Position numbers and translations under genes: made by a program
In this document: positions 226 to 49,650 of the stretch, one piece after another
Position numbering within the stretch: the first letter of the stretch is position 1
Layout of the letters: each line of letters begins with the position of its first letter
Origin: Paenibacillus sp. OV219
Lineage (GTDB): Bacteria; Bacillota; Bacilli; Paenibacillales; Paenibacillaceae
DNA: 64,000 nucleotides
Direction of reading: 5' to 3'
NCBI RefSeq assembly: GCF_900110075.1
Contig: NZ_FOCJ01000008.1
Span: 62,001 to 126,000 of the forward strand
The notes under the pieces: model-generated
Databases searched by the model: none
What the model saw: only the letters and a program-made list of their open reading frames with translations
Told to the model about the DNA's origin: nothing

Positions 226-231
226 TGAAAG

Positions 232-276
232 ACTGTCTAGCAAGTCACAAGGTGTGGCTTGCTAGACAGTTTTTTG
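232..276 (+). terminator. Rho-independent terminator after the Nif3-like gene
   Basis: ACTGTCTAGCAAG pairs with CTTGCTAGACAGT, with a further CAC/GTG pairing inside, and a run of six T follows. It starts six bases after the stop codon. Confidence 0.9.
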
Positions 277-280
277 TGTT

Positions 281-405
281 GAGAGTCGGATATTCCGACT
301 CTCGTGCAGTAATCAGGAGGAAGCTGTTGCTGAGAGTCGGATATTCGTACTCTCGTGTTTGAAATCGTGAGTTTTTACGGTTGAGAGTCGTATTTATCGA
401 TTCTC
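281..405. repeat. Three GAGAG...CTCTC hairpins, non-tandem
   Basis: Hairpins lie at 281-303, 332-354 and 383-405, spaced 51 bases apart. The first is a perfect 10-bp stem (GAGAGTCGGA / TCCGACTCTC) with a three-base loop; the other two keep the outer GAGAGT/ACTCTC or GAGA/TCTC pairing but differ inside. They begin right after the terminator and belong to the same family as the arrays at 420-1255, 27113-27435 and 49278-49650. No coding frame is convincing here. Confidence 0.8.
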
Positions 406-419
406 AGTTTCAAAACGCG

Positions 420-700
420 CCGAAAGTTGGCTGAGAGAACACATATGTGCTCTTCCCGCCGCCGCCCAACAAACTAACCAACAATCTGTAGCTGAGTGAA
501 CACATATGTGCTCTCAGCAACCAAAACGCACCGGAAGTTGGCTGAGAGAACGCATATGTGCTCTTCCCGCCGCCGCCCAACAAACTAACCAACAATCTGT
601 AGCTGAGTGAACACATATGTGCTCTCAGCAACCAAAACGCGCCGGAAATTGGCTGAGAGAACACACCATGTGCTCTCATCACGAGAAAGTAGCGCCTCAC
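420..700. repeat. 111-bp tandem repeat with GAGAG hairpins
   Basis: The phrase TTGGCTGAGAGAAC recurs with CTGAGAG starting at 431, 542 and 653, an exact 111-base period. Each unit has two hairpins around the palindrome CACATATGTG, one opening with CTGAGAG and one with CTGAGTG. An open frame exists on the minus strand only because 111 is a multiple of three; it has no ribosome site. Confidence 0.85.
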
Positions 701-716
701 GCCGCCGATATTGGCA

Positions 717-1255
717 GCTTCCTTATCTGAGAGTGCTGAATCTGCACGCTCGGAGCAACAATCGGCCGATTTTCATGCTGAGAGTACGTATTAGGCTCTC
801 TCAGCTCCGCCAAGTTGCCGATATCGGCAGTTTCTTTATCTGAGAGTGCGTATTCCGCACGCTCGGAGCAACAATCGGCCGATTTTCATGCTGAGAGTAC
901 GTATTAAGCTCTCTCAGCTCCGCCAAGTTGTCGATATCAACAGTTTCTTTATCTGAGAGTACTGATTCAGCACGCTCGGAGCAGCAATCGGCCAATTTTC
1001 ATGCTGAGAGTACGTATTCCGCACTCTCAGCTCAATCATGCCGTCGATATCAACAGTTTCTTTATCTGAGAGTACGTATCCCGCACGCTCAGAGCAATAA
1101 TCGTCTGATTTTCGCGCTGAGAGTACGTATTAGGCTCTCTCAGCTCAGCCAAGCCGCCGACATAGGCAGTTACTTTATCTGAGAGTACGTATTCCGCACT
1201 CTCAGAGCAACAATCGGCTGGTTTTCGCGCTGAGAGCTCATATACGCTCTCTCGC
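717..1255. repeat. 113-bp tandem repeat, five units
   Basis: The junction TTATCTGAGAGT recurs with its CTGAGAG at 727, 840, 953, 1066 and 1179, an exact 113-base period. Each unit carries two GAGAG-type hairpins separated by palindromic or near-palindromic segments such as AATCGGCCGATT and GCCGATATCGGC. The period is not a multiple of three, so the array is not coding. The same unit occurs in inverted orientation at 49278-49650. Confidence 0.9.
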
Positions 1256-1264
1256 GAACTCCAG

Positions 1265-1304
1265 AACACAAAGAACCAACCGCATGCGGTTGGTTCTTTG
1301 TGTT
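1265..1304. terminator. 40-bp perfect palindrome, bidirectional terminator
   Basis: AACACAAAGAACCAACCGCA is followed directly by its exact reverse complement. It lies 11 bases beyond the stop codon of the xylanase gene on the minus strand and closes the repeat region on the plus strand. Confidence 0.85.
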
Positions 1305-1315
1305 TACTCTAGGAT

Positions 1316-4300
1316 TTATAGCTTCCACATGCGGTACAGCATGACCGCCGCTTCGGCACGGGTGAGCGAATCGTTCGGCGAGAGCTTGCCACTATTGCCG
1401 ATAACGATTCCTGCTTTCACCAAAGCTGCTGCGCTGTCTTTGGCATAAGCAGATACGCTCGATGCGTCAGAGTAAGCGTCCAGGCTTCCACTTGCCGCGA
1501 CCTTCTTGCCTGCTGCCGCCAGTGCGCGTGCTGCAAGCACCATCATATCTTGACGGGTGATTGTGCTGTCAGGCTTAAATGTATTGTCTCCAAAACCGGT
1601 GGCAATTCCGAGCTCCTTCGCAATGCTCAGCTCTTTGAAGTAATAAGCGCTCTGCGAGACATCGCTGAATGCCGTCCCATCTTTGCCCGTACCTTTCAAT
1701 TCAAGTGCTCTTATAAGCAGCGCGATGAAGTCTGCACGTTTAATGGAAGCTGCGGGAGAGAAGCTGTCTGCAGACGTTCCTTTGATAACATCGCGTGCTG
1801 CCATCGCTTCAATCGCTTGCATCGCCCAAGGTACGCTCGCCAGGTCACCGAAGGATTTCACCACAGAGGCTACCGCATAAGTACTAAAATGGGTCGTTTG
1901 GAACACGATCGTTCCAGTTACTGCATCATATCGGCCATTCGGTATCGCAGTTACGCTGCCATCGCCAGCAATGTACCAAACAACGAGTGAATCCGGATTG
2001 CCGAGCTCTTCCGCTGTTGGTGTGTATGGAACTGAGATCGTTACCGGTGCATCCGGGTTGTTCCATGCAATTACTTGGTCGCCTGCTGCGATACTCAGAT
2101 CGATAACAGGACGGTTTCCGATCTGCTCGCGAGTAGTTGAATCCAACTTTTCCACATCAGCTTTAGCTACGCGGAAGCTTACTTGATCCGTATTTCCTGT
2201 CACATTAGACAACATGTTGCTCGGAATTTGAATAGTCGCTGTGTCCGTTTTCAATGAAAGCTCAAAGGATTCTTGACCTTTCAGGCTCTGCGAAGGCAAT
2301 TGCACTTCGTAAGATGTCGCATTTGCTTGCGCAGGCACATCGATTACAATTTGTTTCTTGCCGTTTGCTGCTGGTACAGCCTGCTCGATTGCCTTTTTCA
2401 AACTATCGTCGGAAACTACGCTTGTTACTCGTCCTGCCTCACTCTTGACGGTAGGCTTAATTGTAACAACGCCGTCTTCGTTATTCATGCTTCCTGTCGA
2501 GGAAGTAGATCCGCTACCTGACCCTGATCCCGAGCCTGATCCCGACCCTGATCCCGAGCCTGATCCCGAACCGCTACCCGACCCTGACCCGGATCCCGAA
2601 CCGCTACCCGACCCCGAACCCGATCCATTATCTCCGTCACCCGATCCGTCACCCGAATCCGTTTCTTTCGTAAGGTTCAGCACACCGTAAACGGAAGTGT
2701 CCATATATCCGGTACCCGTTGTATCGTTCCATGCCGCAACACTTTGACGGCTGCCGTCTTTCGCGTCATTGATCTGTACGTCAAAACCTAGCTTCGTCTT
2801 GTCGGCAGGTGTGATCGCACTGAGCGGAATCTTCACTTCAATCGTGTAGTTCGTACCGGAAACATCAGTCGCGGATTCGAAGCCCGTCGCGATGCTATCC
2901 GGATTAAAGGATGCTTGGTTATCAAAGTTAATCCGGTATTGTCCGTCGTCATCCTGATAGGAGGATGTCTTGCCATTGTTTTGATCCAAGAAAATTTCGA
3001 CGGAATCCTGTTCGTACTTGTTTTCGCTCGTTTTGTCGAGCTGAGCGTCGTTAACTTGAACCAAAATGTACAGGTTCTGATCATCCCAGAGTGCTTTGGC
3101 TACTCCTGTTGCTCCTTGCCATGCCATCTGGTATTGGTTAATCGGGAGCGCAGTCGTCTCACTCCAAACGGAATCAACCGTGCCATCAATGACTGGTGTA
3201 GCGTAATGAGCAGATGCTTCCTTTGCTTCCTTCACTACAGGCTCATGTGCTGAGATGAAAGTATCTGGGTCTATAACGCCATAGTATGCTGGTTTGGCTT
3301 GCAAATCCTTGTCAAACAATAGCGGATTGGTAGAAGCCCGCCAGCTCGTGTTATCATCCATTCCCCAGAAAGTCACACGTTCAATATCGGCTGCGTGATC
3401 TTTGAAAATATTCATCAGCTGTGCGTACAAATAACCTTGAGCATTAGCAACAGAATCGGCCAGCTGATAGTTGCTTCCCGCCTGAATGTCCATCTCGGTA
3501 ACGCTGACCGTGACACCTAGGGAAATAAACTTCTCCAGGGACAGCTCAACATTTTCCGGATTCGTGTTTACATTATAGTGTGCCTGCATGCCTACGCCGT
3601 CGATAAGAAGTTTACCAGGGTGCGTCTCGGCATAATTGTCATTCAATTCTTTGACCATGTTGTAAATGGCCTGTGCTTTATTCTGGTTATCCTCATTGTA
3701 ATCGTTGTAATAGAGCTTAATATTCCAATCCGGATGGGCGTCCAGCACTTCTCTTGCCGCTAAGAACGCTTGTTCAATGTAGTCGGAGCCAATGGCATTA
3801 TACCAAGGCGTCTGACGAAGCGAAGCTTTCCAATCTGCCGGGTTCGACGGGTTATCGTTCATCGCTTCATTAACGACATCCCAAGAGATGACCTTGTCTG
3901 CAAAATGCGTCATAACCGTCTCGATATGAGTTTTCAAGTTAACGAGCGCTTCTTCCCGGCTGAGAGGGCTGCCGCCAGAAGTATTCATCCAAGTAGGCGT
4001 CTGCTGATGCCAGACCAGTACGTGTCCATGCATTTGCAAGCCAGCATCAACCACTTTAGTAACGAGAGCATCAGCCGCCGCGAAAGTAAAGGTGCCCTTC
4101 GTAGGCTGCAATGCGTCAGGCTTCATGGCGTTGCCAGCTGTAGCGATGTTAAAATGCTTCTTCAGAAGTTCCAGTCGAACGCCATCCAAATCCTCAGCAG
4201 ATATCGCGTTGCCGATGAGGAAGTCGCTTTGATAAGCATCTTTTATTGGAGTCAGGTCATTCTGAATGGTAATCGGGCCAGAGCCGGATTTCACAAAGTT

Positions 4301-5347
4301 AATATCGTCGATATAGTAAGAGGCTGTTTTGTTACTGGAGCTTTCTACATAGATAGTCAAATATTCGCTGCTCACATTGTTGTAACGATAGGTCCCTTGG
4401 AACTGAACCCATCCGTCGGTTGCATTAATGGTTTTCGCCGAGAGGGTCACATAGTTGGCGCTGCTTCCGCTGCCGACCTGCGTAGACAGCTGGAGCTGCG
4501 AGCTTGCAGGAGAGATCAGCTTGACCCACGCCGTTACTTGATACTCATAGCCCTTGTCTACGTTTTTCTCCACACGCAGAGTCGGACCGTGCCAAGAATC
4601 TGTTCTGCCTTCCACTTTCAACGCGTAAGAGCCGCCTTCGGTATGATTATCTGCATTGGTAACCGTCAGCGTTTCCGTGCCTGCTCGACCTACAAAACCG
4701 CTTGCTGCTTGGTTCTCAAAGGTTATAGGTGTGAAAGGAATAGCAGGGTCCCGAGTTGGTTCTACAACTGGACCTGGATCTTCGCCGCCGCCTGAGGTCG
4801 CCTGTTCGGTGATCAGAATATCTCCAATGTAGAACGGAACCGGAGCACCTTCGCCGTTGGAGGATACACGCAATCTAGTGTTGCCGCCGCTTGTGTCAAC
4901 CGTATACTCCTTCGTCAACGTGAAAGCATGACCAGCCGCGAAGCTTGTAAAGAAGAGATCTGTATAGTTCTCTGCGGTTTTAAGGCCTGCTTTTGCCCCC
5001 GAAGGTATTTGTACATCTGAGTCCACATAACCCGTGACTGTAACCGTATAGGTCTTGCCGTTTTCCAAACCGATTTTGCTAAATTCGAAGTCGGCTCCAT
5101 CCCAGTTGTTCGCTCTATTGGCGACATACAAAGCTTTACCGTCGGAATTGCCGTCGAAGGATTTATCGACTGCCGACAGGTTGGCTCCGCCGGATTGTAC
5201 AGACAAGCCTTTACCGTCTGCAAAAGTTTCATGATAAACCGTGACCGTCGTATCTGCAGCCTTCGCGACCTGCGCGAACAAGCTTGAAGGGATGAGTAAA
5301 GCAGCTGCGAGTAAGAACGAGATGACTTTTTTTAGAGTTCTGCTCAT
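1316..5347 (-). CDS. Secreted S-layer-anchored GH10 endo-1,4-beta-xylanase
   Basis: Hydrolyses internal beta-1,4 bonds of xylan at the cell surface. Of 1343 residues, 1-30 are a signal peptide ending AKA; about 32-185 and 205-355 are two beta-sandwich modules like CBM4/9/22; about 365-700 is the GH10 barrel with acid/base Glu494 in WDVVNEAM and nucleophile Glu618 in VSVTEMD; about 715-895 is a CBM9-like module; about 900-955 is an almost pure Gly-Ser linker; then an unassigned segment with a threonine- and valine-rich sandwich look; and the last ~190 residues hold three S-layer homology repeats that bind cell-wall polysaccharide. ATG follows AGGGGGA. The gene stands alone, with a cre-like site 36-50 bases before the start and a 40-bp palindromic terminator after it. 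Family and anchoring are clear; exact CBM families are less certain. Confidence 0.96.
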
Positions 5348-5578: not shown

Positions 5579-6463
5579 TTACCCAATCATCTCCATAAAC
5601 CTCACTGCTGCACTAGACACCGGCATGCTGCGCATCGTCATGATCCCGACCTGTGAAGGCGGCAGCTGCACGTCGAGCTTAATTTCGAACAGCGATCCGT
5701 CCTCAAGCTCTTTGGACACGAACTCCCTTGTCACATAGGAGATGCCGAGTCCTTTACGCGCCAGTTCGATGAGCAGATCGACGCTGCCGACTTCTATCTC
5801 TGGCTTTATCGTATGTCCGTAGCTCTGGAACAGCTCCGATATCGCCATCCGCGCCCGGCTGTTGCGTGAGAACAGAATAACCGGATACTGCTGCAGCTTC
5901 TCTAGCGACAGCGATACATTCCTCAGCTCTGCATAATGCGGTCCAGCAACGAAACAGTCCTGCAGCTGCAAGCTCTCCCGCACCTCAAGCTGCGGATCCG
6001 TAATCGGCATTCGCACGACCCCGAGATCAATACGTCCTTCTTTCAGGAATGAAATAACCTCCGGAGTCGTCCCATGGTTCAGGTGAAGCCGAACACCAGG
6101 GTACTTCCGATGATAATCTTCTAAGTACGGGAGGATATAATGCTTGAAGAGGGAGTCGCTTCCGCCGATTCGCAGCTCGCCGCTGTCGAGATTTTTGAGC
6201 GCGGCCATTTTCTCTTCTGCGAGTGAAATGAGAATTTGCGATTGTTCGATATAAGAATATAGAACAGCTCCTTCTTGCGTCAGCGTCACACCTTTGGGAT
6301 TGCGGTAAAATAACGCGATGCCGAAGCTGTCCTCCAGCTGCTTAATCGCGTGGCTAACGCTTGGCTGCGTAATGTATAACGCTTTGGCTGCTTGCGTGAG
6401 GCTTCCCGTCTTCGCTGCCCAGTAGAATACTTTGTACAGCTCGTAGTTTATGTTCATAGACAT
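5579..6463 (-). CDS. LysR-family transcriptional regulator
   Basis: 294 residues, the usual LysR length. Residues about 4-65 form the winged helix-turn-helix (SLTQAAKALYITQPSVSHAI is the recognition part), and about 90-292 form the periplasmic-binding-like effector domain that starts GELRIGGSDSL. ATG at 6463 follows ACAGGAG at good spacing. The gene is transcribed away from zwf-tkt-tal across a 160-bp gap, the classic layout for a LysR protein controlling its neighbour, so it is a candidate regulator of the pentose phosphate operon. The effector cannot be read from the sequence; the family also includes CysB- and CcpC-like metabolite sensors. Confidence 0.93.
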   Translation of the reverse strand: MSMNINYELYKVFYWAAKTGSLTQAAKALYITQPSVSHAIKQLEDSFGIALFYRNPKGVTLTQEGAVLYSYIEQSQILISLAEEKMAALKNLDSGELRIGGSDSLFKHYILPYLEDYHRKYPGVRLHLNHGTTPEVISFLKEGRIDLGVVRMPITDPQLEVRESLQLQDCFVAGPHYAELRNVSLSLEKLQQYPVILFSRNSRARMAISELFQSYGHTIKPEIEVGSVDLLIELARKGLGISYVTREFVSKELEDGSLFEIKLDVQLPPSQVGIMTMRSMPVSSAAVRFMEMIG

Positions 6464-11697: not shown

Positions 11698-11875
11698 GTT
11701 CTGGCGAAGTGTGGGGGTTAGACCTAAGGGGGGATGTGGACACCAAATTGGCGGAGAACGGGAGGTTTGGCGATCAAGAAGGGTATTGAGACCCTCCATT
11801 GGCGAAGAACAGTTGCATAGCACGAGCTACCACAAAGAGAGGTGCCCAGTCGCTACCTCTCTTTCCCCTATTAAC

Positions 11876-27112: not shown

Positions 27113-27435
27113 CTGAGAGTGCAGAATTGGCACTCTCAGCGTTGCGATCGGCTCGTCTTGAGCCGAAATCGCGTGTGAGAGATCAAACACGGATCTCTTA
27201 CGCCGAGAAATCGGCGAATTCGAAGCTGGAAACGAGCTATTTTCAGTGCTGAGAGAACGTATTCGTTCTCTCGTACTCGAAAAGCAGTAAATTCCGAGCT
27301 GAGAGAGCGTATCTGTGCTCTCGGAGCAGCTGAGAACCAGAAACTAGTGATTTTTAAGGCCGAGAGAACCTATTTGTTCTCTCGTGCGCAAAAAGCAATG
27401 AAACTGAAGCTGAGAGAACGTATTTGTTCTCTCAG
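27113..27435. repeat. Array of six GAGAG...CTCTC hairpins with covarying stems
   Basis: TGAGAG or CGAGAG motifs start at 27114, 27176, 27250, 27300, 27361 and 27411. The outer pairing GAGAG/CTCTC is kept while inner bases change in complementary fashion: GTGC/GGCAC, GATC, GAACG/CGTTC, GAGC/GCTC, GAAC/GTTC. Unlike the arrays at 717 and 49278, spacing is irregular (62, 74, 50, 61, 50). The last hairpin is followed by TTTT and could end transcription. Nothing is recognised from 27436 to the promoter at 27572. Confidence 0.88.
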
Positions 27436-49277: not shown

Positions 49278-49650
49278 CAGCCGAAATCGGCAGCTTGGCG
49301 AAGCTGAGAGGGCGTAATACGTACTCTCAGCGCGAGAATCGACCGACTGAAGCTCTGAGCGTGCAGATTCAGCACTCTCAGATAAAGAAACAGCCGAAAT
49401 CGGCAGCTGGCGGAGCTGAGAGAGCGTAATACGTACTCTCAGCGCGAAAATCTGCCGATTGAAGCTCTGAGCGTGCAGATTCAGCACTCTCAGATAAGGA
49501 AACAACCGAAATCGGCAGCTTGGCGAAGCTGAGAGAGCGAAATACGTACTCTCAGCGCGAGAATCGACCGATTGAAGCTCTGAGCGTGCAGATTCAGCAC
49601 TCTCAGATAAGGAAACAGCCGAAATCGACAGCTTGGCGAAGCTGCCGGTT
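49278..49650. repeat. 113-bp tandem repeat, inverted copy of the 717-1255 family
   Basis: CA(G/A)CCGAAATCG(G/A)CAG begins at 49278, 49391, 49503 and 49616 (periods 113, 112, 113). Read on the minus strand each unit matches the repeat at 717-1255, with CTGAGAGTGCTGAATCTGCAC, a near-palindromic AATCGGTCGATT and a CTGAGAGTACGTAT...CTCTCAG hairpin. It fills most of the gap between the ManD-like and YflT-like genes; after 49650 only the upstream region of the next gene remains. Confidence 0.9.

Follow-up and report, generated by a model that had tools for sequence, protein, structure and literature searches.

The three arrays of GAGAG...CTCTC palindromes in the window, i.e. the stretch of 64,000 nucleotides of Paenibacillus sp. 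OV219 that was analysed, are members of a genome-wide family of palindrome arrays. The helical spacing of the palindromes, together with the A/T phasing of the DNA between them, is a constraint much stronger than the covariation of the palindrome arms on which the preliminary description of this DNA had concentrated, and it had been missed there. The arrays and their associated elements in the window are:

229..273, + strand: intrinsic-terminator-like hairpin of the upstream gene, directly preceding array 1
281..1253, no strand assigned: array 1, 18 palindromes of the form YGAGAG-N(11-13)-CTCTCR
1265..1304, no strand assigned: terminator-like hairpin with an 18-bp stem, just past array 1, where the convergent gene ends
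27115..27433, no strand assigned: array 2, 6 palindromes; 22-mers with TATT cores; spacing 50/61
27176..27198, + strand: degenerate palindrome of array 2, GAGAGATCAAACACGGATCTCTT
49306..49604, no strand assigned: array 3, 6 palindromes

The palindrome counts (18, 6 and 6) were obtained with one mismatch tolerated in GAGAG/CTCTC, and all gene calls in this analysis are codon-usage predictions. Array 1, the spacers of which measure 28 and 39-41 bp in most cases, is flanked by the end of a + strand gene on one side and by a convergent - strand gene on the other; array 2 is preceded by a DUF1904 gene and followed by a nucleoside-hydrolase-like gene, and array 3 separates an enolase-superfamily gene from a YflT-domain gene. 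The large protein predicted for the gene convergent with array 1 (1316-5347, - strand) is GH10 xylanase-like and contains CBM and SLH domains. Inside the spacers of 23-mer arrays (window positions 49278-49650 and 700-1150, as well as several arrays of the genome), an additional small, GCCGATTTCGGC-like palindrome was observed.

The places at which the arrays had been reported were recovered with the limits listed above, and all arrays begin, as had been stated, soon after a gene end, at most about 60 bp downstream: array 1 follows the strong terminator hairpin at 229-273, whereas arrays 2 and 3 start 22 and 38 bp, respectively, behind a stop codon. The statement that such hairpins occur nowhere else holds for the window, in which a single isolated GAGAG...CTCTC was found at 11837, but not for the genome, which contains many more.

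Indeed, the exact pattern GAGAG-N4-TATT-N4-CTCTC was present at 70 sites in the 6.10-Mb genome, whereas the reversed-pattern control yielded 0. A two-palindrome pattern matched 251 times in forward and 312 times in reverse orientation (563 in total; control: 1 and 1) in Paenibacillus sp. OV219 (G000); the further copies in relatives, which the preliminary description had proposed to search for, were found in four congeneric species (G001, 616; Paenibacillus taihuensis, G013, 646; G016, 501; G003, 301). Low counts were obtained for G009 (28) and G005 (14), and nearly all of the about 390 other members of the family remained at background. Viral contigs gave 0 matches; matches to Bacillus sp. 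and to MAGs in the scan of genome contigs turned out to be unrelated tandem repeats or lone matches. In unbiased samples of 100 kb from each of the congeners G010, G012 and G014, which lack the family, a generic scan of palindrome spacing revealed no excess of the 50/61 spacing; with arrays missing from these samples, their function cannot be indispensable for the genus. The palindrome arrays matched no Rfam family, and nothing on a GAGAG/CTCTC array family was found in the literature searched on Paenibacillus palindromic repeats, which supports the earlier remark that no named element fits.

In the 33 arrays of G000, the palindromes are separated by spacers of 28 bp (91 cases) or 39 bp (57 cases), generally in alternation. 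The 74 arrays of four species (G000, G001, G003 and G013) yielded 184 non-redundant spacers (similarity below 68%), of which 91 were 28/29 bp, 65 were 39/40 bp and three were 49-51 bp long, i.e. their lengths differ in steps of 11 bp. As a result of spacers quantised at 28 or 39 bp, the palindromes follow each other at a distance of 50 or 61 bp, which corresponds to five or six helical turns. The spacer sequences differ from array to array; common to them are their length and their rhythm of base composition: in 28-bp spacers, positions 10 and 20 are A/T (W) in 92% and those in between in about 17-35%, and 39-bp spacers have A/T peaks near positions 10, 20 and 31. The variance of the 28-mer W-profile exceeded the maximum of 2000 shuffles more than fivefold, and the summed power spectrum of 71 arrays peaked at 10.20 bp (12.2 versus 1.1 when shuffled). 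Centred on the dyad, the A/T maxima are positioned at 0, about 20 and about 30 (and about 41) bp and at the next dyad, and this pattern repeats over neighbouring palindromes. The DNA between the palindromes thus carries phased A/T tracts, which are predicted from the sequence to be bendable.

A sister type of array with another core, consisting of AAGAGAGGTAAC-AGTTACCTCTCTT-like palindromes that recur every 51-52 bp, with A/T tracts at +20 and +31 from the dyad, was present in G009 and G005, and less clearly in G096:

G009, C5:230025-230236: sister array (L063)
G005, C1:550360-550452: sister array (L064)
G096, C39: sister array (L065)

In those of G009 and G005, A/T tracts are located at +20, +31 and +41 from the dyad within a 52-bp, five-turn repeat. 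Since the sister arrays keep the five-turn layout with a different core, the array geometry may extend beyond the GAGAG sequence. At about 3390-3470 of L065 (G096, genus g12), the palindrome TAATCGCC...GGCGATTA was observed at 52-bp spacing and without GAGAG; in Cohnella terricola (G092; L066/L168, about 6070-6450), palindromes of the type CATTGTCGC-TTTTT-GCGACAATG recur at 51 bp and alternate with a GAGAG palindrome.

Comparison of orthologous gaps in three species revealed that the arrays are mostly unalignable in sequence, whereas gap position and architecture are kept. The gap of array 3, which had not been pre-selected in the other species, contains arrays in G000, G001 and P. taihuensis (gap lengths of 373-450 bp) that differ in cores and spacers, with flanking proteins of 87-95% identity; it is plain in G005, G009, G003 and G016 (108-136 bp). 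Nine loci of G000 coincide with array regions of G001, and the array resides in the same gap in 9/9 of them (more coincide with P. taihuensis loci); because both locus sets had been chosen for the presence of arrays, the same-gap agreement alone is informative in this comparison. Array 2 is absent at the matching site of G001, where the upstream gene differs too, and the orthologous gap of P. taihuensis is shrunken to a two-palindrome remnant. At one alignable pair of orthologous arrays (n = 1, a weak comparison), identity amounted to 95% in GAGAG/CTCTC, 69% in the spacer and 87% outside. Within single arrays, near-identical 111-bp units occur. These units and the fast turnover between species would be expected of selfish satellite DNA, in which arrays would spread and become homogeneous through tandem duplication and gene conversion, with no function for the host; this is nevertheless a very improbable origin, as unrelated spacers in different arrays agree in length and A/T phase, and homogenisation within an array cannot yield such likeness between arrays.

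The palindromes are 22-23 bp long with YGAGAGM half-sites, the near-invariance of GAGAG/CTCTC being due in part to a search that required those letters. In a set of 164 non-redundant 22-mers from 74 arrays of four species, Watson-Crick pairing exceeded expectation at position 7 (0.76 versus 0.40) and position 8 (0.92 versus 0.51), but not at position 6 (M/K; 0.59 versus 0.61) and position 0 (Y/R; 0.49 versus 0.51), although both are variable. Restricted to the C-class, position 7 still covaried (0.64 versus 0.37, p 0.0005); the covariation of position 8 comes in part from subfamily structure. Among the C-class halves, mixed AAC/CAC combinations (22) outnumbered AAC/AAC (13). Mismatches of both types were equally frequent (A.G and C.T: 33 versus 29; T.G and C.A: 36 versus 33), so that no RNA strand is preferred. 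The behaviour of positions 0 and 6 would be the signature of independently read duplex half-sites with extra symmetry inside, unlike that of an RNA stem; simple independent half-sites do not account for the covarying positions 7 and 8, which would be compatible with a hairpin or cruciform. The proposal of selection on, or copying of, self-complementarity therefore agrees with positions 7 and 8 and disagrees with positions 0 and 6, and in the form of a simple hairpin it fails. The joint changes of inner pairs cited for the 27 kb array were confirmed, but inner positions are mismatched in other palindromes.

RNA-level hairpins of 3'-UTRs that affect mRNA stability or attenuation, as the preliminary description had implied, are a quite improbable explanation. 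The location of the arrays behind gene ends, the foldability of the palindromes and the covariation at positions 7 and 8 would fit; however, positions 0 and 6 lack covariation, the mismatches have no strand preference, the array palindromes were not scored as intrinsic terminators, and both the 10.2-bp A/T phasing and the spacing quantised by +11 would be meaningless in RNA. Furthermore, the polarity of the arrays in G001 follows replication even in tandem lagging-strand contexts (3/3).

With regard to gene context, convergent gaps were enriched in arrays in two species (18/33 versus 10/108 and 14/29 versus 15/246 background gaps; OR 11.8 and 14.4; p 1.6e-7 and 2e-8, respectively), and divergent gaps were nearly array-free (1/62 arrays versus 103/354 background gaps, two species). 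The preference for convergent gaps could be explained by mere tolerance of insertions away from promoters. In the complete genome of G001 (dnaA at 0.79 Mb, GC skew reversal near 4.15-4.2 Mb), the T-rich palindrome cores were on the strand directed opposite to fork progression in 36/38 arrays among the matches listed; per array, the ratio among these matches was 16:1 for the left replichore and 20:1 for the right one (Fisher p 1.2e-8). The count comprises the arrays from 100 of 164 matches listed, and the rigorous replichore test refers to this one complete genome. The polarity rule was obeyed by the tandem arrays behind lagging-strand genes mentioned above and by 10/11 convergent arrays. In all 74 arrays, the core skew tracked the flanking GC skew (p 8e-7); the GC-skew orientation test in G000 placed 23/32 arrays in the expected direction, which was not significant (p 0.15). 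According to synteny with G001, the + strand of the window is the leading strand; in consequence, arrays 1 and 2 contradict the polarity rule and array 3 obeys it. One array near the origin of G001 (0.91 Mb, L040; L019 in G000) defies the rule in both species, i.e. the exception is conserved.

A replication-strand polarity would also be expected if REP/BIME-like non-autonomous elements had been mobilised from lagging-strand ssDNA, copied by a single-strand-specific transposase and were now decaying, with an architecture that would be that of the copying enzyme and not a host function. The many extragenic, palindromic and chromosomal copies and their patchy occurrence across the genus are in line with such an origin. 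It is nonetheless unlikely: Y1_Tnp (PF01797; TnpA-REP/RAYT transposase) was detected in none of the array-bearing genomes G000, G001, G003, G013 and G016 (control genomes were positive), the positions are conserved between species without hopping, the spacers have kept their length but not their sequence, and the REP spacing of E. coli as measured in the sample (38/45/53-57 bp) does not match the 50/61 bp of the Paenibacillus arrays.

The constraints that are kept, namely whole-turn spacing, the phase of the A/T tracts, half-sites, location and polarity, act on double-stranded DNA. A dimeric protein that would oligomerise on one face of wrapped DNA is the most economical model; with moderate confidence, the arrays are regarded as operator-like sites on bendable DNA that are packed by a putative dimeric DNA-wrapping protein, in a role comparable to that of BIME-2. 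Successive palindromes would be filled by a homodimeric DNA-binding protein on one helix face, the phased A/T tracts would let the DNA wrap or bend round the complex in the fashion of a nucleosome, and, less certainly, the complex might, in a BIME-2-like manner, manage supercoiling or the run-through of transcription where transcription units converge. The near-identical repeats within arrays suggest that 111-bp double units are gained and lost by tandem duplication as the arrays grow and shrink. Somewhat more tentatively, the arrays may represent a new class of bacterial chromosome elements set by helical geometry and not by sequence, in which dimer sites, oriented with replication and conserved in position, would form arrays at convergent gene ends on bendable DNA phased at 10.2 bp and be packed by a putative nucleosome-like protein. 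If confirmed, this would be a rare bacterial case of helical phasing visibly selected over hundreds of sites while the sequence drifts; it would indicate a DNA-wrapping protein, for which a synthetic array could serve as bait, and would make it testable how convergent transcription and replication polarity shape the chromosomes of Gram-positives outside Bacillus.

Among known systems, CRISPR arrays likewise possess palindromic repeats at regular spacing; they combine invariant repeats with unique spacers, whereas in the Paenibacillus arrays the repeats vary, spacers recur within an array, two spacer lengths exist and the location is at gene ends. BoxC intrastrand-triplex elements resemble the arrays as short intergenic bacterial repeats with purine/pyrimidine arms; Paenibacillus is unmentioned in the paper on them, and helical-phase arrays are unreported in the parts of it considered here (PMC4666352). 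Phased A-tract or nucleosome-positioning-like DNA shares the A/T tracts at each helical turn and the 10.2-bp repeat; in the arrays, however, sequence-specific palindromes interrupt at fixed multiples of the repeat, and this on a bacterial chromosome.

The BIME-2/REP palindromic units of E. coli are bound and cut by DNA gyrase. Both they and the Paenibacillus elements form intergenic arrays of extragenic 20-40 bp palindromes (abundant here) at 3' ends with short and long linkers, probably acting at the DNA level; in contrast to the alternating unit orientation of BIMEs, neighbouring palindromes are on the same strand in almost all arrays (inversions are rare), and these mostly have one polarity, GAGAG half-sites and unconserved spacer sequence. 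The gyrase binding motif of E. coli as determined by Topo-Seq, 130 bp long with a degenerate centre, exhibits A/T-G/C phasing with a period of 10.75 bp (PMC6379681). The arrays are similar in their symmetric centre and helically phased A/T-G/C flanks, and their palindromic nature, 3'/convergent location and double unit of about 111 bp, near the length of that motif, would suit natural gyrase or topoisomerase sites, i.e. a Gram-positive equivalent of BIME-2. This identity is improbable, since the period is 10.2 bp, the GAGAG/CTCTC half-sites are strict and reiterated up to 19 times, and a symmetric enzyme would not predict replication polarity; the difference in period from the published motif (PMC6379681) in particular makes gyrase itself doubtful as the binder. 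The 10.2-bp period and the missing RAYT speak against classing the arrays with BIME-2; by analogy, gyrase-bound BIME-2 would be their closest functional parallel.
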